Source: a virus. Taken from it: a stretch of 27,211 nucleotides of DNA. Below are positions 7,138 to 15,246 of this stretch, piece by piece. The notes beneath the pieces are model-generated. The model was not told the DNA's origin, did not search any database, and was given only the letters and a program-made list of their open reading frames with translations. The stretch's first letter is position 1. Each line of letters begins with the position of its first letter. The translations under genes and the position numbers were made by a program. The stretch spans positions 1 through 27,211 of IMG/VR virus record IMGVR_UViG_3300025128_000255; one strand, 5' to 3'.

Positions 7138-9144
7138 ATGGCAATATTCAAAGGTTTTAAACCTCAAGGAATGCAAAAGATTGCAAATAAAATGGGCTAT
7201 CAAGGTAGTATGGAAAACTTTGATAATTATTTGCAACAAAATCCTAATAAGCAACGAGAGATGATTGTTTATCAAGATGCTGCTAGAAAAATGGCACAAG
7301 GTGGTGTGGTAAGATTACAAGAAGGTGGTTTTGCTAGACCTACTGATAATCCTGATAATTTTGTTCCTTTACCCTTTCCTCCTCCTTCAGGTGTCGCAGG
7401 TGGACAAGCACAACCAAGAGAGTTATCACAAGAGTATGTTCCACCTGCTGCATCAACGGCAGGTAAAGGTATAGGAGATGTAGCAGCAGATCGTCTAACA
7501 CAACCGGGTTTACCTACAGGTGCAGTAGTTTCTCCTGTTGGAACAGAAATAACTGATGCACAAACAATTGACTCTCAAACAGGTAGGTTATCAGGGGATA
7601 TTGTAGTAGACCCTACTACTGCTGATACTACATTAGCTGATGACGTTACAGCAACAGAAGCTAATTTAACAGACCCAGTAAAGAGTAAAGAAGATGTTGA
7701 TTCTGCTTTAGATTCTGTACAAACGGCTCAAACTGATGAGGATGACCCTAGAGCAAAAGTAATTGCGGCAGAACAAACAGAGTCAGCCGTAGGTAATTTA
7801 GAAGCTGCGCAAGGTAAATCTATTAAAATGGATAATCCTGTACAAAGAGAAATACAGGTAGGAGAACTAATAGAGGGTGTAGCTAACGCAGAAAAAGCAG
7901 CTCAATTTACAGAACAAATACAGGCTGCTGAAGCTAAACCTACAGAGAAAGCTACTGTACAAGGGCAACTTGAAGGATTAATGCAACAGTTTGAAGGTGG
8001 TAAAACACCTCCTTGGGCTGCAGGTGCTATGAGGGCTGAAATGGCTAGGATGGCTTCTAGAGGTATGGGTGCTTCTAGTATGTCAGGTCAGGCAATGATT
8101 CAAGCCGCATTGGAATCTGCTTTACCCATTGCATCGGCTGATGCACAAGTAACTGCAAAGTTTGAAGCACAGAATTTAAGTAATAGACAACAAACAGCTA
8201 TGTTAGCAGCAGAACATCGTGCTAAATTTATGGGCATGGAGTTTGACCAAGCCTTTCAAGCTAGAGTTCAGAATGCTAGTAAAATAGCAGATGTAGCGAA
8301 TATGAATTTTACGGCAGAGCAGCAGATTGCTTTAGAAAACAGTCGTAATGCTAATAGTATGAATATGGCTAACTTAACGAATAGTCAGGCTTTAATTATG
8401 GCTGAAGCAGCAGCTGTATCTAATTTAGAAATGGGTAGTCTAAATAATAGACAACAAGCAAGTGTTCAGAATGCTCAAAACTTCTTGCAAATGGATATGG
8501 CTAATTTATCTAATCAACAACAGACAGAATTATTTAAGGCACAACAAAGAGTACAATCTTTATTTTCCGATCAAGCTGCAGCAAATGCTTCTAGACAATT
8601 TAATGCTACGTCACAAAATCAAGTAGACCAATTCTTTTCCAATCTTAAACAACAAGCATCACAATACAATGCTACACAGGCTAACGCACAAGCACAGTTT
8701 AATGCAGGTCAAACAAATACTATTGAAAGATTTAATGCTGAAGTTAATAATCAGCGTGACCAGTTTAACGCTAACAATGAAACTGTAATAGCACAGAATA
8801 ATGCTCAATGGCGAAGACAAGTAGCTACGGCAGATACTGTAGCAGTCAACAGGGCTAATGAATTAAATGCTAGTGCTGTTCTAGGTATATCAAAACAGTC
8901 TTACGATAATTTGTGGACTATGTATGCTGACACTATGGAATTTGCATGGAAGAGTGCTGAAAGTGAATTAGATAGAATAGTAACAATGGCTGAAGCACAA
9001 TTAGATGCTGAAGCAGCGCAATATGCAGCTGATGCCGCAGGTAAATCTTCAGCAGGTAAATCAATTGGTAATTTAATTACTACATTAGGTGGTACTTATC
9101 TGAAGTATCAATTAGGTGGAGCAGGGTCTTTAATAGATGTATAG
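7138..9144 (+). CDS. Large repeat-rich helical virion protein
   Basis: This 668-residue protein starts two bases after the previous stop. Residues 1-65 (MAIFKGFKPQGMQKIANKMG, followed by MAQGGVVRLQEGG) resemble an N-terminus I recognise from uncultured marine phages. Residues 65-240 are Pro/Thr/Asp/Ala-rich and probably disordered. Residues 344-475 are six 22-residue repeats and residues 486-557 continue as 11-residue repeats centred on F/Y-N-A, together predicting a long helical rod. A Gly/Ala-rich C-terminus follows. There is no enzymatic motif. Gene order places it with internal/ejection proteins; a fibre-associated or tail-length role cannot be excluded. It is certainly coding, but its function is inferred only. 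Confidence 0.8.
   Translation: MAIFKGFKPQGMQKIANKMGYQGSMENFDNYLQQNPNKQREMIVYQDAARKMAQGGVVRLQEGGFARPTDNPDNFVPLPFPPPSGVAGGQAQPRELSQEYVPPAASTAGKGIGDVAADRLTQPGLPTGAVVSPVGTEITDAQTIDSQTGRLSGDIVVDPTTADTTLADDVTATEANLTDPVKSKEDVDSALDSVQTAQTDEDDPRAKVIAAEQTESAVGNLEAAQGKSIKMDNPVQREIQVGELIEGVANAEKAAQFTEQIQAAEAKPTEKATVQGQLEGLMQQFEGGKTPPWAAGAMRAEMARMASRGMGASSMSGQAMIQAALESALPIASADAQVTAKFEAQNLSNRQQTAMLAAEHRAKFMGMEFDQAFQARVQNASKIADVANMNFTAEQQIALENSRNANSMNMANLTNSQALIMAEAAAVSNLEMGSLNNRQQASVQNAQNFLQMDMANLSNQQQTELFKAQQRVQSLFSDQAAANASRQFNATSQNQVDQFFSNLKQQASQYNATQANAQAQFNAGQTNTIERFNAEVNNQRDQFNANNETVIAQNNAQWRRQVATADTVAVNRANELNASAVLGISKQSYDNLWTMYADTMEFAWKSAESELDRIVTMAEAQLDAEAAQYAADAAGKSSAGKSIGNLITTLGGTYLKYQLGGAGSLIDV
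8167..8562 (+). repeat. Six 22-residue (66-bp) repeats within the virion protein
   Basis: A hydrophobic Leu/Phe recurs at residues 347, 369, 391, 413, 435 and 457, exactly 22 apart. Conserved units read M-A/G-x-L-x-N-x-Q-Q (for example MANLTNSQ, MGSLNNRQQ, MANLSNQQQ). Twenty-two is two hendecads, as in long right-handed coiled coils. Confidence 0.8.
8593..8811 (+). repeat. 11-residue (33-bp) F/Y-N-A repeats
   Basis: Aromatic residues fall at 488, 499, 510, 521, 532 and 543 of the 668-residue protein, an exact 11-residue spacing, mostly in the context Q-F/Y-N-A. The phase is shifted relative to the upstream 22-residue series, so a break or stutter lies near residues 476-487. Confidence 0.8.
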
Positions 9145-9155
9145 GGAACTAAATA

Positions 9156-9377
9156 ATGCAAACAAATTATGCTAGAGATATGTTTTTGGTTTTTGACAGT
9201 TTTAATGTTTTAGATAAAAAAAAGAAAAACTCTAATAGCCTATTAACAAAAAATTCACAATATTCTAAAATGAGTAGTGATACAAAAAGTCAACCTATTT
9301 TTAAAATAGCACGATATAAAAATACAATTAAGAAAAAACGAATGGAATTTTTAAATGCAAGAAACAGCACAACATAA
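9156..9377 (+). CDS. Small basic Lys/Asn/Ser-rich ORF of unknown function, possibly not coding
   Basis: This open frame encodes 73 residues and fills most of the 210-base gap between two virion genes. It starts at ATG 12 bases after the upstream stop, with AGGGA in the leader, and overlaps the next gene by 23 bases. The product is very basic (KKKKK, KKKR clusters) and low in complexity, with no motif or membrane segment. In its favour are the packed gene order and no better frame in the gap. Against it is composition typical of AT-rich spacer DNA. It could be a small DNA-binding protein or a remnant. Confidence 0.4.
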   Translation: MQTNYARDMFLVFDSFNVLDKKKKNSNSLLTKNSQYSKMSSDTKSQPIFKIARYKNTIKKKRMEFLNARNSTT

Positions 9378-9900
9378 ATTTAATGCACCAATTCCGGGCG
9401 AATCTTTAACAACGGAATTAGGAGGAAGACCTTGGCAAAAACCTCCTCAGTATTCTGATATAAATGAAGTTGTTAATTACTATACGACTCGTATGAATAC
9501 TGAAGAATTTTCTATGCAACTCGCAGACGTAATGGATATGGGTATTCCTTTAACAACATTAGCAAACTCCATCCAAATGTCGGGGGTTATGCAAGGAAAA
9601 CATACTATTGATGCAGGTATATTAGTTATGCCTGTCTTAATGGAACAGATGATGGTTATAGGCGATGCTTTAGGTATTAAATATGACAGTGGTTTAGAAG
9701 ATGATGCAAAATTAATGTCTGAAAGAGATAGTCTAGCCCATAGAAGTTTAAGAAAATTAAGGAGTCAGGAAGACAAAGGTTTACCTAATCTTGAAGAAGT
9801 ACAAGGAGTATCCTTGAGTTCAAAACCCCAAGCGAACGAAACAGTAGCTAATGAACAAGAAGAAAAGCCAATGGGATTAATGTCTAGGAGAGCAGAATGA
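9355..9900 (+). CDS. Conserved-looking phage protein of unknown function in the virion operon
   Basis: This 181-residue protein has an N-terminus with an 'APIPGESLTTELGGRPWQKPPQY' type pattern (PIPG, then RPW-x-x-PPQY). I associate that pattern with marine phage proteins located between structural genes. Residues 45-125 are helical (TEEFSMQLADVMDMGIPL, Met-rich VMPVLMEQMMVIG), and the tail is charged and probably disordered. There is no catalytic motif. The gene ends in ATGA, so the next gene starts inside its stop, indicating translational coupling. It may be a scaffold, chaperone or minor virion component for its neighbours. The first ATG is used because PIPG lies close to the N-terminus. 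Confidence 0.75.
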   Translation: MQETAQHKFNAPIPGESLTTELGGRPWQKPPQYSDINEVVNYYTTRMNTEEFSMQLADVMDMGIPLTTLANSIQMSGVMQGKHTIDAGILVMPVLMEQMMVIGDALGIKYDSGLEDDAKLMSERDSLAHRSLRKLRSQEDKGLPNLEEVQGVSLSSKPQANETVANEQEEKPMGLMSRRAE

Positions 9901-11444
9901 GTCTATTTGAAAATATAGCAAAAATATTAGGTGGTGGGGATAAACATGTAGGCTATGGTGTTATAGAAGGTAGTGCAGATAATGCTACACAAATAATAAA
10001 AGACGATGACGATAGATTAGATGCCAATATAAGTCGTTTGACAGAAATAAGACAGAAAAGACTTTTAAATGAGGAAACAAAATACAATACAGAATACAAT
10101 ACTAATTTTGAAGAAGTAAAGGCATTAGCTGCTTCTTTAGGTCCTAATGGTTCTGATATATTACACAGTTTAGTTGTACAGGATAATAGAGGATATGCAG
10201 GTGCTAAAGCACTTGTTCCTGTAGTGGTTAAAAAAGCTGCATCTGAAAATAGAACTGTAGAAGATATTTTAAATTACACTCAAAGAAAAGAGGGAAAAAG
10301 TATAACAGCAAAACAATTAACGGATATAGTTACAACACCTATGAATGTACCTGATTTTGATATGGGAACTATATTACAGGGAACAGGAAGTGATATTATA
10401 AACTTAATAGCAGGTGCAGGTTCGGCAGAAAGATATACAGAAGGACAAGTTAAACAACAAATGGCTATTGCAGGTTTTGGAGAAGATTTTGGTAAAACAG
10501 AAAAATCTGATTTAGCTATTGAACCTATCACTGTAGATTTATTTGAGTTAAATCTTGTTGGAACTATAGATCAAAAAATAAAAATGCTTAATGATGCTTT
10601 TATGAATACATCAGATAACAATGAAAAGAAAAAGTATTCTAATAGAATATCAGAATTAACGATTAGAAAAAATATATTGGGTGAAAGTAAACTTTTATCT
10701 ACTTCAGCATTAAATAGAGAAATACAATTAACTCTAGCAGACATAGCTAAATCACAGAATTTAACAGGAACATTTGATTCAAATTCTGGTAGGTGGATTA
10801 ATCAAGGCACAGAAATAGAAAGAGTAAATGAAGGAACTAGACTTGCAACAAATATAACGAGCGTAATAGAGTCTGCAAAAATGATTAAGTCAAGATCAGA
10901 TGGAAGACCTGCTCAAGGATATTTAGAAGCAAGTGTTTCAAGTGAAATACAAGATATTGCAGATTCTCTTGGTATAGCAATTGCTGCAGATATATCTGTA
11001 ATACAATTAAAAACAATAGCTACAACTTTAGGATATAATGTAAAACTTGTTTCTGCAAAAGATTCTAGTACAGGTGAACCTTACCTTACTTTAGGTTCTA
11101 AATTTGTATTTACACCACCTTCAAATACATCTTCAGGAAACCCTCCAAATAGTAATACTGTATTTCCTAAAGGTCTTAATAAGGTAATAGGTCAACATAA
11201 AAATACAATATCAAAAATTAGTCCTCAAGCAGGAATGAATGCAAATCAAAATGCTGCAAGAAAAGCACTTATAATAATAGCGATACAAAACAGTCATCCA
11301 AATGCTCCTACAGCAAATAACATAACACAAAACTATATAAACAGCATACCACTAAAGCAACTAGAAAAATACTGGAAAGATAACGTAGGTTATGATTATG
11401 ATCGTACTATATTTAATAACAAAACTATTAACGATTTATCATAA
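9897..11444 (+). CDS. Putative internal virion/ejection protein (515 residues)
   Basis: The gene starts in a 4-base ATGA overlap with the upstream gene. Residues 1-100 contain long charged helices (DDDDRLDANISRLTEIRQKR), the middle is mixed, and a Pro/Ser/Asn-rich linker near residues 405-425 precedes a short helical C-terminal domain. I see no recognised motif, signal peptide or membrane segment. In T7-like phages the genes between fibre/tail and the end of the structural operon encode internal core proteins that are ejected to build a conduit across the cell envelope. Position and size suggest that role for this gene and the next. It is not identifiable by sequence alone. Confidence 0.65.
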   Translation: MSLFENIAKILGGGDKHVGYGVIEGSADNATQIIKDDDDRLDANISRLTEIRQKRLLNEETKYNTEYNTNFEEVKALAASLGPNGSDILHSLVVQDNRGYAGAKALVPVVVKKAASENRTVEDILNYTQRKEGKSITAKQLTDIVTTPMNVPDFDMGTILQGTGSDIINLIAGAGSAERYTEGQVKQQMAIAGFGEDFGKTEKSDLAIEPITVDLFELNLVGTIDQKIKMLNDAFMNTSDNNEKKKYSNRISELTIRKNILGESKLLSTSALNREIQLTLADIAKSQNLTGTFDSNSGRWINQGTEIERVNEGTRLATNITSVIESAKMIKSRSDGRPAQGYLEASVSSEIQDIADSLGIAIAADISVIQLKTIATTLGYNVKLVSAKDSSTGEPYLTLGSKFVFTPPSNTSSGNPPNSNTVFPKGLNKVIGQHKNTISKISPQAGMNANQNAARKALIIIAIQNSHPNAPTANNITQNYINSIPLKQLEKYWKDNVGYDYDRTIFNNKTINDLS

Positions 11445-11463: not shown

Positions 11464-14400
11464 ATGAGTTCATACACTACTTACAGTCAAGAAGATTTAA
11501 CAAAAGAAGTTCTTATTGACAATGAAGATTTTTTAACTGATGCAACGAGTTTTTTAAATAAACGTAGAAAAGCAGGATTAAAAACTAACATAGACGAAAT
11601 GAGCCTAGAAGATAAAACTGAGGTTTATGATGAGTTTATGCAACATTTTCGTATGCAAAATGTAAATGAAGGAACTGCAACTTTCGATTTATTTCATGCT
11701 CAACAACAAGATGCTGCAGGTAAAACGCAAATGGGTAATCTTATGAATACCTACGATAGAATGGATAGCGACTTTGGTTTTAAAGCTGCAGGTGATTATC
11801 TTCAAGGTATAGTTACTGCACCTTCTACATATGCAGGTATATTTTCTTTTGGTGCAGCTAAAGCAGGTGCTATTGCAGCACAACAAGGAATAAAATTAGG
11901 TATAAGAGAAGTTATAAAAAGAGGTGCTGCAAAAGCATTAGAAAAACAAGGTGTTGCTCTAACTCAAAAAAATATTGCTAAAGAAGCAGGAGAACAAGCC
12001 ATTAGAGGTATAGGTTATAAAGAAGCAATAAAAAGCCCTTTAAAAACTATAGGTCAACAGGCAATGAATTATAAAGATGGTTTTATACACGGTGGTTATA
12101 AAACAGCTATAGGTGCAGGTCTTGTTGAAGGTGTGGGTGCAGGAGTAACTGTTTATCAACAGGAAAGACTAAGAGCAGAGCAATTAGGTCTAAAAGAAAA
12201 TATAAATTTATTTGATGTATCTTTAGCAACAGGTTTAGCTACAGTAACAGGTGGTGTGTTAGGTGGTATTACAGGTAGTAGTAGAACACTAAGTGCTAAT
12301 GTAGCTGAACAAATTAGAATGGTTGCAATAGCAAAAGAAACAAGAGGTATTGAAAGAGTAAATAAAAAACTAGCAAAAAAAGCATTTACAGATTCTACAA
12401 AAGGTGATTTAATTAAAGTTAATAGTAAAGGTGAAGAAGTAATATTAAAAGGTAAAGGAGAATCCATAGCAGATAATGCAAAAACAATATATAGTGATTT
12501 AAAAGCATCGTTAGAAGAGTCTGTACCTAAACTTAAAAAGGCAGGTCAAAAACTTAAAGAAAGAGTAGGTATTTCAGGGGATGTTGATTTTGGTCAAGTA
12601 GGTTATGATTTATCTTTAGATAGAAAGTTACATGAAAACATTGCTACTGCTGCAGCGAAAGTATTACATTTAATACCTGCTCAAGACGTAGCTGTATTAT
12701 CAAAAGATGGTCTTACTAAAACATTAAAAAAAGAAAGAATAGCATCTAGAATAGCTAGAGGATTAACATCAGGAGTTATTAGTGATGTTAGATTTATAAA
12801 AATATTAGATGACCACGGTTTAAGTTTACAACAATTTTCTGGACTTTTAGTTGAAGATTATAGTTTAGCAGGTAAAACTCTACAAACAGCTGCCCAATTA
12901 TCTAAAGCAGAAAAGAAAGCTAAACAAAATTTATTATTGTCTGAATTAACAGAAATAGATCAAAGACTATTAAATTTAGTTGATATTGTTACACCTGCTA
13001 CAAAAGCTATAAAAGAATCAGGTTCAGAAAGTAGAGGTGCTAAATTATTTACTTTGTGGAAAAACTGGTTTGGTTTAGGTGCTGCAAATAAAGCACGTAT
13101 TGGAATGATGACAATACAAACTGCTACTACAATGCGTAACACCTCTAGTGGTTATATGCGTAATTATACATACGCTCTTGATACTTTTGGTGAAGGGTTA
13201 TTAACTACTCTAAAAGGTAAAGTGCAAGGTGGTAGTTTAAAAAAAGCAATAAAAGGATTGACTGATGAAGAAATAAAAGAAGCAGGAAATTTAAATGTTC
13301 GTTTAGGTCTTGGAATGATGAGAAATGGTTGGCACTCAGCATTAGGAAAAGATTTATGGCTAGGAACTAGAAGTTGGGAAACAGAAGCACTAGAACTATT
13401 ACTAAGAGATGAAAGATTTTCTAAGTCAGATTTAGGTAAAAAACTATTTAAAGAATTGGGAGATATAGGTAGTATAACAGGGCAAGAAGCAGGAATTGTC
13501 AGACTTGCAAGAAAAATGAATTACTTAAATACTTTAAGTGATAACATGTTTAAACGTGCTATTTTTTCAAGAGAGGTAGATAAGTGGTTATATACATCAG
13601 GACAAAGAGGTGGTTTAAGAGGATTTTTTGAAGATGCTTATTTAGACCCTATCAACGCAGCTAGTTCAACAGGAAAGTTTAGTAGTTTACCTGATAAAGT
13701 AATAGCAGAGTCTATGGAAAAAGCACTTGAGTTTACTTATCAGACAGGTAACTTTAGAGATAAAGAAGGTGCTACAAATATTCTGTTTGATGCTTTTATC
13801 AAAGGATTTGAAAGATTTATACCTTTATCTTTTGCTGCACCTTTTCCACGATATTTAGTTAATCAACTTATATTTCAATATGAACATATGCCAATACTTG
13901 CTCATATAAATTTAGGTGGTATACTTAATAAAAAAGGTGGTAAAAAAGGTGTTAGAGGAATAGAGATAGCACCAGAACTTAGATTAAAATTAGATGCTGA
14001 ATCTTTTGCAAAAGAAACAACAGGACTTGCAACACTAGCTACTTTTTTTGCTATTAGGGCACATTTTGGAGATGAAGATACAGGTCCTTACACAATTAAT
14101 AATCCATTTGGTGAAGGGCAATATAATCTACAAGCATTATTAGGACCTTATATGGGTTATGCTATGGTTGCAGATATAATATATAGAATGACTGGACCTA
14201 ATAGAAAAAGAAAAAAGATTCCAGTACTTGGAGTACCCATACCTCAATTACACGATAATGATAAAGTAGCTGTAGATATACCTGTACCAACAAGAGAAAT
14301 ATTACAAGCAATAGCAGGTGGTCAGGGTCGTGCAGGTACAGGTTTGCATATAGTTGATGCTACTGTCGATATTATAGTTAATGGTGCTGAACAAGGTTTA

Positions 14401-15246
14401 GGTAAAGAATTTGTTTATGAATCTCTTGCAAGAGTTTTAGGAGATGCTTTTAATTCTGCAACAGTTGGAATGGGTCAACTTAAAGATATAGCAGGTACAT
14501 TTCTTGATCCTGAATACAGAATAATATCAGACAGTACATCTGTTGATTTTTTTGAATATATGTTAAAACAAGCTGTAAGATCATTTCCAAATAGATATGA
14601 TGCTAACGAGGGTAATATTCTTTTAGACAAGGAAGACGTACCTGTATATACACCCTATAAGAAAAAACCTTTAACTAACGTAAATCCATTTTTAAAAATG
14701 ACTACAGGTGTCACAATAGAAGAAGAAAAAACTGTAGCAGAAAATGAGTTAGATAGATTAAGATTTGATTGGTTTGAAGTTTCACCTCAAACAATTAGAG
14801 GAGATAGACCTGCAACAAATCTAGCTAGATTAAAAATGGGAACTTATATGGATGATCAAATAACAGGGTTTATTTTAAGTGACGATTATAAAAATTTAAA
14901 AAGTGATTTAGTTAAAAGATTTTTTTTAAAGTCTTTAATAAATCAAAAAAGAACTGCATCTAGAGGTAAGATAATGGCTCTAGTTGGCAATGAAACTCTA
15001 GAAGAACATCATCAAAAATTTAAAAATATATTTTTCTCATTACCTAAGTCAAAAATAAACATAGTTGCCGAAGCCTACAAAGAAGTTTCTGGAGGTGTTT
15101 CTATATATGAAGAAGTATTACCCGGTAAACTTAAAGGCAACTATGAATATGGCATGTTTTTGTATACAGATTACTTTGGTCAAGAAGATGAAGATTTAGT
15201 AAAACTAAAACTTAAAGATATGTTTGGAGCTAGAAGACCAAAATAA
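11464..15246 (+). CDS. Very large putative internal virion/ejection protein (1260 residues)
   Basis: This is the last gene of the virion module; ATG follows an AAAGG leader. The N-terminus is acidic and helical. Residues about 105-125 (TAPSTYAGIFSFGAAKAGAI) and 252-273 (VSLATGLATVTGGVLGGITG) are Gly/Ala-rich hydrophobic stretches typical of ejected proteins that insert into membranes. The rest is Lys-rich and helical. Length and operon position match T7 gp16, the largest ejection protein, but I do not see the lytic transglycosylase Glu motif that T7 gp16 carries at its N-terminus. Either the lytic function is absent or it sits elsewhere. The stop codon directly abuts the stop of the convergent MazG gene. 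Confidence 0.65.
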   Translation: MSSYTTYSQEDLTKEVLIDNEDFLTDATSFLNKRRKAGLKTNIDEMSLEDKTEVYDEFMQHFRMQNVNEGTATFDLFHAQQQDAAGKTQMGNLMNTYDRMDSDFGFKAAGDYLQGIVTAPSTYAGIFSFGAAKAGAIAAQQGIKLGIREVIKRGAAKALEKQGVALTQKNIAKEAGEQAIRGIGYKEAIKSPLKTIGQQAMNYKDGFIHGGYKTAIGAGLVEGVGAGVTVYQQERLRAEQLGLKENINLFDVSLATGLATVTGGVLGGITGSSRTLSANVAEQIRMVAIAKETRGIERVNKKLAKKAFTDSTKGDLIKVNSKGEEVILKGKGESIADNAKTIYSDLKASLEESVPKLKKAGQKLKERVGISGDVDFGQVGYDLSLDRKLHENIATAAAKVLHLIPAQDVAVLSKDGLTKTLKKERIASRIARGLTSGVISDVRFIKILDDHGLSLQQFSGLLVEDYSLAGKTLQTAAQLSKAEKKAKQNLLLSELTEIDQRLLNLVDIVTPATKAIKESGSESRGAKLFTLWKNWFGLGAANKARIGMMTIQTATTMRNTSSGYMRNYTYALDTFGEGLLTTLKGKVQGGSLKKAIKGLTDEEIKEAGNLNVRLGLGMMRNGWHSALGKDLWLGTRSWETEALELLLRDERFSKSDLGKKLFKELGDIGSITGQEAGIVRLARKMNYLNTLSDNMFKRAIFSREVDKWLYTSGQRGGLRGFFEDAYLDPINAASSTGKFSSLPDKVIAESMEKALEFTYQTGNFRDKEGATNILFDAFIKGFERFIPLSFAAPFPRYLVNQLIFQYEHMPILAHINLGGILNKKGGKKGVRGIEIAPELRLKLDAESFAKETTGLATLATFFAIRAHFGDEDTGPYTINNPFGEGQYNLQALLGPYMGYAMVADIIYRMTGPNRKRKKIPVLGVPIPQLHDNDKVAVDIPVPTREILQAIAGGQGRAGTGLHIVDATVDIIVNGAEQGLGKEFVYESLARVLGDAFNSATVGMGQLKDIAGTFLDPEYRIISDSTSVDFFEYMLKQAVRSFPNRYDANEGNILLDKEDVPVYTPYKKKPLTNVNPFLKMTTGVTIEEEKTVAENELDRLRFDWFEVSPQTIRGDRPATNLARLKMGTYMDDQITGFILSDDYKNLKSDLVKRFFLKSLINQKRTASRGKIMALVGNETLEEHHQKFKNIFFSLPKSKINIVAEAYKEVSGGVSIYEEVLPGKLKGNYEYGMFLYTDYFGQEDEDLVKLKLKDMFGARRPK

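Follow-up and report, generated by a model that had tools for sequence, protein, structure and literature searches.

Locus and gene order

The stretch of DNA analysed here, referred to as the window, is the 27.2-kb virus record IMGVR_UViG_3300025128_000255 in its whole length of 27,211 nucleotides; its source phage was typed as an HMO-2011-type podophage. We describe an open reading frame (ORF) on its plus strand, 7138-9144, which encodes a protein with two consecutive series of short repeats. Throughout the relatives of this protein, the length of the repeat region changes in whole units of 11 residues. The protein may be the first member of a four-gene ejection module.

In a tblastn search of phage records, the repeat protein matched gp25 of Puniceispirillum phage HMO-2011 with 56% identity over 99% coverage, and 27 phage records of ~52-69 kb gave matches. 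The gene order round the repeat gene is that of HMO-2011, and full-length homology together with the shared neighbourhood thus assigns the protein to the gp25 family. The homologues in HMO-2011, CRP-1, CRP-345 and other HMO-2011-type phages are direct counterparts at the same genome place; HMO-2011 gp25, annotated "hypothetical protein", differs by an extra C-terminal CWVARE-type domain. The plus-strand run before the repeat gene encodes an adaptor-like protein (Pfam SU10_adaptor), an amidase-type tail protein and a tail fibre of 1203 amino acids (aa) with an S74 domain. After the repeat gene follow, in turn, proteins of 181, 515 and 1260 aa. The features of the repeat protein and of the module are collected in Table 1.

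Table 1 Features of the repeat protein and the four-gene module, in window positions.
Feature	Position	Strand	Basis
Repeat-protein ORF, 668 aa, HMO-2011 gp25 homologue (56% identity)	7138..9144	+	tblastn, gene order
N-terminal helical module, residues 1-71, ending near GGVVRLQEGG	7138..7350	+	model, family comparison
Conserved pre-repeat segment, residues 263-330; Ile331-Ala332 just after it is the N-side length anchor	7924..8127	+	
Series 1, six complete degenerate 22-residue units, residues 347-478; scores as seven units on the family scale	8176..8571	+	
Series 2, 11-residue units, residues 479-566, modelled inside a continuous helix 459-582	8572..8835	+	
Conserved post-repeat segment, residues 567-639, with the C-side anchor Trp593	8836..9054	+	
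Gly-rich, mildly hydrophobic C-terminal tail, residues 640-668; S74 or CWVARE-type domain beyond the tail in some relatives	9055..9141	+	
Second module gene, 181-aa protein	9355..9900	+	BLAST relatives in 84 loci
Third module gene, 515-aa protein, fast-diverging	9897..11444	+	
Fourth module gene, 1260-aa protein, fast-diverging	11464..15246	+	

Two series of degenerate repeats share one register

An earlier note on this DNA had read positions 8167-8811, which correspond to residues 344-558 of the ORF, as a coiled-coil rod of exact 22- and 11-residue repeats. The marker residues on which that reading was built are present: residues 347, 369, 391, 413, 435 and 457 are L, F, F, L, L and L, and residues 488, 499, 510, 521, 532 and 543 are F, F, Y, F, F and F. 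Self-similarity of residues 336-590, scored with BLOSUM62, reached z values of 7.4 at lag 22, 6.1 at lag 33, 6.0 at lag 44 and 5.0 at lag 11. Among 500 shuffles, z never rose above 4.2 whatever the lag, and the observed 11/22 periodicity exceeds them all. The series differ from each other: self-similarity is highest at lag 22 for residues 336-480, but at lags 33 and 11 for residues 480-590.

The repeats are degenerate rather than exact. Successive units are 21% identical in series 1 (lag 22) and 27% identical in series 2 (lag 11), compared with 9-11% off phase, and the DNA of the units is 39% (lag 66) and 45% (lag 33) identical. Tandem Repeats Finder, the kind of check that the note had proposed, reported no array in the repeat region. 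A stutter had also been placed between the two series; none exists, as Asn of phase 11 and Ala/Leu of phase 1 keep one 11-residue register across the junction. The apparent stutter is an artefact, because the marker residues sit at position 1 of the unit in series 1 and at position 10 in series 2. The total from anchor to anchor is moreover quantised by 11 (see below), which also counts against it.

Repeat-region length changes in whole units

Length was taken as the raw residue count from the Ile-Ala just before the repeats to the Trp after them, and a core profile was used only to place these anchors. Among 71 unique close homologues, a 255-residue span was identical in 70 and 22 residues longer in one. 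Taken alone this set would suggest no variation, but it is biased to near relatives. With strict anchors, 213 matches yielded 138 unique segments (52 matches lacked one anchor residue, the other exclusions being duplicate segments); these have 12 lengths, all of them multiples of 11 away from the 262 residues of the window protein. When substituted anchor residues were allowed, 186 of 186 unique proteins differed by multiples of 11, with 15 lengths (152, 185, 196, 207, 218, 262, 284, 350, 372, 460, 482, 570, 592, 702 and 812).

A further set was fetched once the rule was fixed. Three other queries gave 126 further loci; dropped from these were 3 that did not have both anchors, 10 known from the first set and 34 duplicates. 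All 79 new unique proteins obey the 11-residue rule, with one new length, 680. The expectation that repeat number differs between relatives is thus borne out, in exact steps of 11 residues, and no homologue without the 11-residue spacing was met among the 265 unique proteins. The flanking parts served as controls: the N-terminal one shows 96 distinct lengths among 128 proteins and the C-terminal one 37, both spread over all residues modulo 11. N-terminal parts vary widely without a rule beside the strictly ruled repeats, e.g., in the homologues at loci L052 (1656 aa) and L045 (1347 aa). The N-terminal module of residues 1-71 is confined to this protein family among the ORFs examined. We have little doubt that the repeats are real and that their lengths are quantised.

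Length is constant even among quite diverged relatives, both in the 262 class (70 of 71) and in the 43 proteins of the 372 class. The aligned members of the latter are 44-78% identical to the first and show no gap in the repeats. As far as literature searches reached, which fell short of most subscription journals, no description of this phage repeat was found, and its strictly modular length evolution is new to that extent.

When the region was split at the junction Asn, the lengths of series 1 (12 values in 176 proteins) differed by multiples of 22 and those of series 2 (6 values) by multiples of 11; one row had no mid anchor, two were ambiguous, and one row in the unit-number analysis had no split. 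The later set likewise gives 22-residue steps in series 1 and 11-residue steps in series 2. The 11- and 22-residue rules are firm. The unit numbers of series 1 are 3, 4, 5, 7, 10, 12, 15, 17, 20, 22, 27 and 32, the window protein having 7. A maximum-likelihood tree was built from the non-repeat flanks of 80 proteins (80 of 173 rows, with at most 16 per length class) and implies at least 23 length changes. Lengths in the family step by exactly 11, 22 or often 110 residues.

Series 1 alone accounts for at least 20 changes on the tree, only 4 of which must alter the unit number modulo 5; 13 changes fall within a single state covering 50 rows, and 2 within another covering 20. In the first set, all unit numbers from 7 upwards (7, 10, 12, 15, 17, 20, 22, 27 and 32) are 0 or 2 modulo 5. 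Under an assumption of independence, 15 of 20 changes at a chance of one in five have a crude binomial probability of 2e-7. The later set contributes a number of 25 units, which fits the pattern, and one 8-unit case, which breaks it and whose mid anchor is possibly misplaced. The five-unit pattern is therefore best called suggestive. The longest proteins (L146, L147, L149, L151 and L177) carry 330-base tandem copies, equal to five units, with a DNA identity of 0.57-0.64. These copies possibly record how units are gained. Within the 372 class, sequence identity is 0.26-0.35 at lags of 1-9 units and singles out none of them strongly.

Predicted structure of the repeats

The AlphaFold model of the window protein (51 sequences) shows a continuous helix over residues 459-582, with a predicted local distance difference test score (pLDDT) of 60-80 over most of it, and series 1 at low confidence. 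In a second model, made for a 372-class relative (43 rows, almost gapless), series 1 is built as separate helices, and 11 of the 11 listed series-1 helices begin at phase 3 of the 22-mer. In this model, too, series 2 is largely helical, at low confidence (pLDDT 33-55).

A profile of the 22-residue unit shows a hydrophobic residue at position 1 (85%), S/T/D/N at position 2 (89%) and Gln at position 5 (82%); Gly is almost confined to position 20 (19%) and Asn reaches 59-65% at three positions. The capping-box signature formed by the N-cap residue at position 2 and Gln at position 5, together with Gly at position 20, indicates that the helix of series 1 is broken. Placed round an 11/3 helix, the hydrophobicity of series 1 forms two opposite seams, a second harmonic matched by 1, 0 and 0 of 5000 shuffles in three length classes. 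A single hydrophobic seam was not found in series 1, where the first harmonic is at shuffle level. The two harmonics of series 2 are about equal (0.109 and 0.106). The repeats have two opposite faces, one of uncharged amides and the other charged.

As the earlier note had expected, the region is predicted to be helical, with series 2 modelled as one long helix. The hendecad coiled-coil rod itself stands in part: the 11-residue register and the long helix of series 2 agree with it, whereas series 1 appears as separate capped helices with no single seam. On the evidence of the separate helices, the capping boxes and a first harmonic no higher than in shuffles, a continuous two-hendecad coiled coil was rejected for series 1. 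The separate helices of the second model also led us to drop, for series 1, an amide-lined barrel of continuous hendecads; for series 2 such a barrel is possible. On the strength of the models, we consider it likely that series 1 forms one helix per 22 residues and series 2 a long helix.

Structural searches added general likenesses. Foldseek found nothing at E <= 0.001 in the PDB for either model; a search against viral models gave five matches at E <= 0.001, with template modelling (TM) scores below 0.25, and a sixth (E 2e-3) named "DNA transfer protein". VIA-align was run on Foldseek's own list and returned mostly designed helical repeats with Z <= 8.6, a range common for helical repeats; absences from that list prove nothing. 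The best structural matches of the second model, at the end of series 1 and the start of series 2, are de novo designed helical repeats such as DHR76, DHR18 and DHR79. Their Z values of up to 8.6 (a designed fusion) are commonplace for helical repeats and speak for the general arrangement only.

Family searches and the C-terminal slot

The window protein gave no match in PHROGs (E up to 0.001) or Pfam (E up to 0.1), one insignificant match with phmmer and nothing in a PDB profile search. When all 51 members of the alignment were compared with PHROGs, the best E value was 0.029. An S74 domain passing the Pfam cutoff ends the relatives in the Roseobacter phages CRP-3, CRP-212 and CRP-738; the domain is absent from the window protein, and most relatives also have none. 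A CWVARE-type domain of ~75 aa ends 11 of the 71 unique close homologues, as counted by eye, among them those at loci L082, L022, L023, L026 and L031. The C-terminal slot is thus occupied by a CWVARE-type domain in some homologues, by S74 in three Roseobacter-phage relatives and by nothing in the window protein, a distribution which suggests, at the level of sequence, that the C-terminal domain is an exchangeable cassette.

A four-gene module resembling ejection clusters

The position of the gene is the best clue to the function of the repeat protein. In annotated relatives the module runs in the order repeat protein, ~165-210-aa protein, medium protein, large protein. Proteins of the gp14, gp15 and gp16 types are described as having 181-240, 431-982 and 609-1337 aa, the first being the best conserved (PMC8954989). 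The 181, 515 and 1260 aa of the window's proteins fall within these ranges, and the 181-aa protein is the best conserved of them: BLAST relatives were found in 84 loci, compared with 13 for the 515-aa and 33 for the 1260-aa protein. The modules of T7 (gp14/gp15/gp16) and DEV (gp73/gp72/gp71), too, cluster one small, one medium-sized and one very large protein, of which the larger two diverge fast (PMC8954989, PMC10925440). They differ from the module described here in showing no sequence match, and here the gene of the repeat protein precedes the trio. Order and sizes are compatible with an ejection cluster, but sequence searches put no name to the three downstream proteins. Among the downstream genes of five relatives, PHROGs returned "virion structural protein" only for the large protein of Slicky01 and nothing consistent.

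An S74 domain also ends gp20 of Salmonella phage 7-11, which is annotated as a DNA ejection protein, and phiGT1_17, which is annotated as structural and encoded just before putative internal virion proteins. The SU10 counterpart of 7-11 gp20 is SU10 gp22, and SU10 gp20-24 are reported to be absent after genome release (PMC9509320). The families of these proteins, phrog_4287 (7-11 gp20, SU10 gp22) and phrog_6121 (phiGT1_17), resemble the repeat protein in lying in or just before the ejection block, in an N/Q-rich stretch and a Gly-rich segment, and in a C-terminal S74 domain in some members on both sides. They differ in that no homology is detectable outside S74, so that no profile match places the repeat protein in either family, and their N/Q-rich part contains 11-19% G compared with 1.5% here. 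We therefore treat the relation as a likeness of position and build, not as membership.

Asn and Gln make up 31% of the repeats, compared with 7-13% in the six neighbouring proteins measured. A DNA conduit of similar composition is described for phiX174 H, the DNA pilot protein, which forms a decameric alpha-helical tube; N, Q and R side chains (amide and guanidinium) line this tube, which starts with hendecads (PMC7354561). Both proteins thus contain hendecads, and by composition, which alone was compared, N+Q amounts to 31% here and 25.6% in the H tube, N+Q+R to 36% and 30%, and large hydrophobics to 25% and 24%. H differs in placing 3 hendecads and 11 heptads in one helix, where series 1 is modelled as separate helices; phiX174 is moreover a single-stranded DNA phage without a tail, and no sequence relation is claimed. 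By analogy, the comparison supports a repeat protein working like a DNA-contacting helical conduit and proves nothing.

Several further observations concern the locus and its relatives. The repeat gene and the 181-aa gene are separated by a 210-base gap, which is filled by a 73-aa ORF at 9156-9377 (+) that overlaps the start of the 181-aa gene; several relatives have an annotated gene of ~60-75 codons at this place. The ~68-kb soil phages of Sinorhizobium and Rhizobium at loci L087 and L093 possess the same kind of four-gene module as the 54-kb marine phages, with a repeat region of 185 residues, the shortest among the isolates measured. The homologue at 7345-9936 of phage ctYwJ313 (MW202701, locus L089) bears the GenBank annotation "huntingtin", evidently a misnomer given to a Gln-rich sequence of helical repeats. 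Further on in the window, the opposite strand encodes MazG, ribonucleotide reductase, a nucleotide kinase, an endonuclease, a Cas4-type exonuclease, DNA polymerase, endonuclease VII, a helicase and a primase; a tRNA search of the window found none.

A possible role in DNA ejection

Taken as a whole, the proposal that a four-gene ejection module begins with ORF 7138-9144, whose product contains a helical-repeat conduit element, has, in our judgement, about an even chance of being right, and we hold the ejection role of the repeat protein itself to be just as evenly balanced. The protein would be packaged in the head, leave it ahead of the DNA or together with its first part, and help form or line a DNA conduit across the cell envelope. 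Its C-terminal half would consist of N capped helices (~12-18 residues plus a loop per 22-residue unit) followed by the long helix of 11-residue units. Repeat number would set the reach or the wall area of this part of the conduit, and insertions or deletions other than whole units would be eliminated, since they would break the packing register. The constant length among diverged relatives fits a part whose reach or wall matches something outside the head, e.g., the host envelope or partner proteins.

A number of results weigh against this assignment. The 181-aa protein has no clear transmembrane helices, unlike gp14-type proteins. A PDB profile search was blank for the 181-aa and 515-aa proteins and gave only weak unrelated matches for the 1260-aa protein (best E 0.043). 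An identification as ejection protein by PHROG homology was rejected, as the matches of the S74-bearing relatives vanish once S74 is trimmed. Alignment to the 7-11/SU10 proteins by hhalign reached a probability of 0.4%, i.e., no homology at the sensitivity used, and phiGT1_17 scored E 0.6 against the core model. The S74 domain of the relatives is also typical of trimeric fibres. AlphaFold confidence is moderate: the second model has a pLDDT of 62-82 in series 1, and the window protein averages 52.6. If the longest repeat region were a single straight helix, it would extend over ~120 nm, too great a length for a rod that simply spans the periplasm. Finally, the presence of the repeat protein in the virion is an inference.

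The five-unit pattern invites a more specific arrangement, in which series 1 would form a superhelical tube or spring. Each turn would comprise five 22-residue helices (110 residues), and lengthening in evolution would be by whole turns. As a monomer or a ring, series 1 would coil round the entering DNA with its uncharged Asn/Gln face inward, and repeat number would set the turns and the reach of the conduit. We regard this arrangement as improbable. The best structural matches are up-down helical hairpins, which counts against five helices per turn, and five-unit steps are easily had without a structural reason because of the 330-base tandem copies in the longest proteins.

Alternative explanations

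The repeat protein could instead be an external trimeric fibre or tail needle, i.e., a rod outside the particle with a C-terminal chaperone where present and with repeat number as rod length. The S74 domain is known from trimeric fibres, and it stands at the C terminus of the CRP-3, CRP-212 and CRP-738 relatives. The repeat gene directly follows the tail-fibre genes, and series 2 is predicted to be a long helix. The needle gp18 of SU10 is encoded shortly before the ejection proteins gp20-24, and the P22 needle gene likewise precedes ejection-protein genes. However, series 1 resembles separate capped helices and has no single seam, in comparison to a first harmonic of 0.16-0.18 in the best 66-residue windows of SU10 gp18. 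With S74 set aside, no tail or fibre family was matched beyond E 0.029; most relatives including the window protein are without S74, and S74 also occurs on proteins that are annotated as ejection proteins or lie inside an internal-protein block. We consider a fibre or needle possible but doubtful. If the repeats of series 1 were coils of a beta-solenoid, each of 22 residues and with Asn/Gln ladders, the recurrent Asn at three positions would be accounted for, and by sequence alone the second harmonic at 11/6 residues is indistinguishable from a 2.2 period (aliasing). Yet both AlphaFold models are helical, the repeats contain 1.5% G+P, 13% V+I+T and 56.5% A+Q+E+L+M+K+R, series 2 advances in 11-residue steps and N-cap boxes recur, which leaves a solenoid with hardly any credence.

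Length evolution bears on two further readings. Slippage or unequal recombination might copy whole 66- or 33-base units with no selection on the register, a mutational artefact for which the 330-base tandem copies in the longest proteins speak. At this divergence, small in-frame insertions and deletions are expected, as the 96 N-terminal lengths illustrate, yet 0 of 265 unique proteins are out of register; the 372 class, too, is without a strongly favoured lag. We rate such an artefact as unlikely. A scaffold or ruler in the head interior, whose repeats would measure a capsid distance or set the amount of DNA, would agree with two facts: a lineage keeps its length, as in 70 of 71 unique close homologues, and the changes that do occur are stepwise. 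The idea of the earlier note that repeat number might set a physical length finds no support as far as genome size is concerned: in 14 records chosen from those fetched, the Spearman correlation with genome length was -0.22 (p 0.45), and 68-kb rhizobial phages have 185 residues where 54-kb pelagiphages have 350. Because rod length does not follow genome length, a genome ruler is unlikely, and we rate a head-interior scaffold or ruler of any kind as very unlikely.

Significance

HMO-2011-type phages are described as being among the most abundant and widespread in the ocean (PMC9038755). In the literature found, there is no account of how their DNA crosses the host envelope. The repeat protein is ordinary as an uncharacterised member of a probable ejection module, and it is unusual in its strictly modular length evolution. 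Its repeats also serve as a caution that 22-residue repeats are not automatically two coiled-coil hendecads. The quantised length looks as if a mechanical part had been lengthened by one whole module each time. With at least 23 length changes, all in whole modules, the family amounts to a natural experiment on how the dimensions of a probable DNA-delivery machine are determined, and natural variants with 3 to 32 units therefore make the relation between repeat number and physical dimension directly testable.

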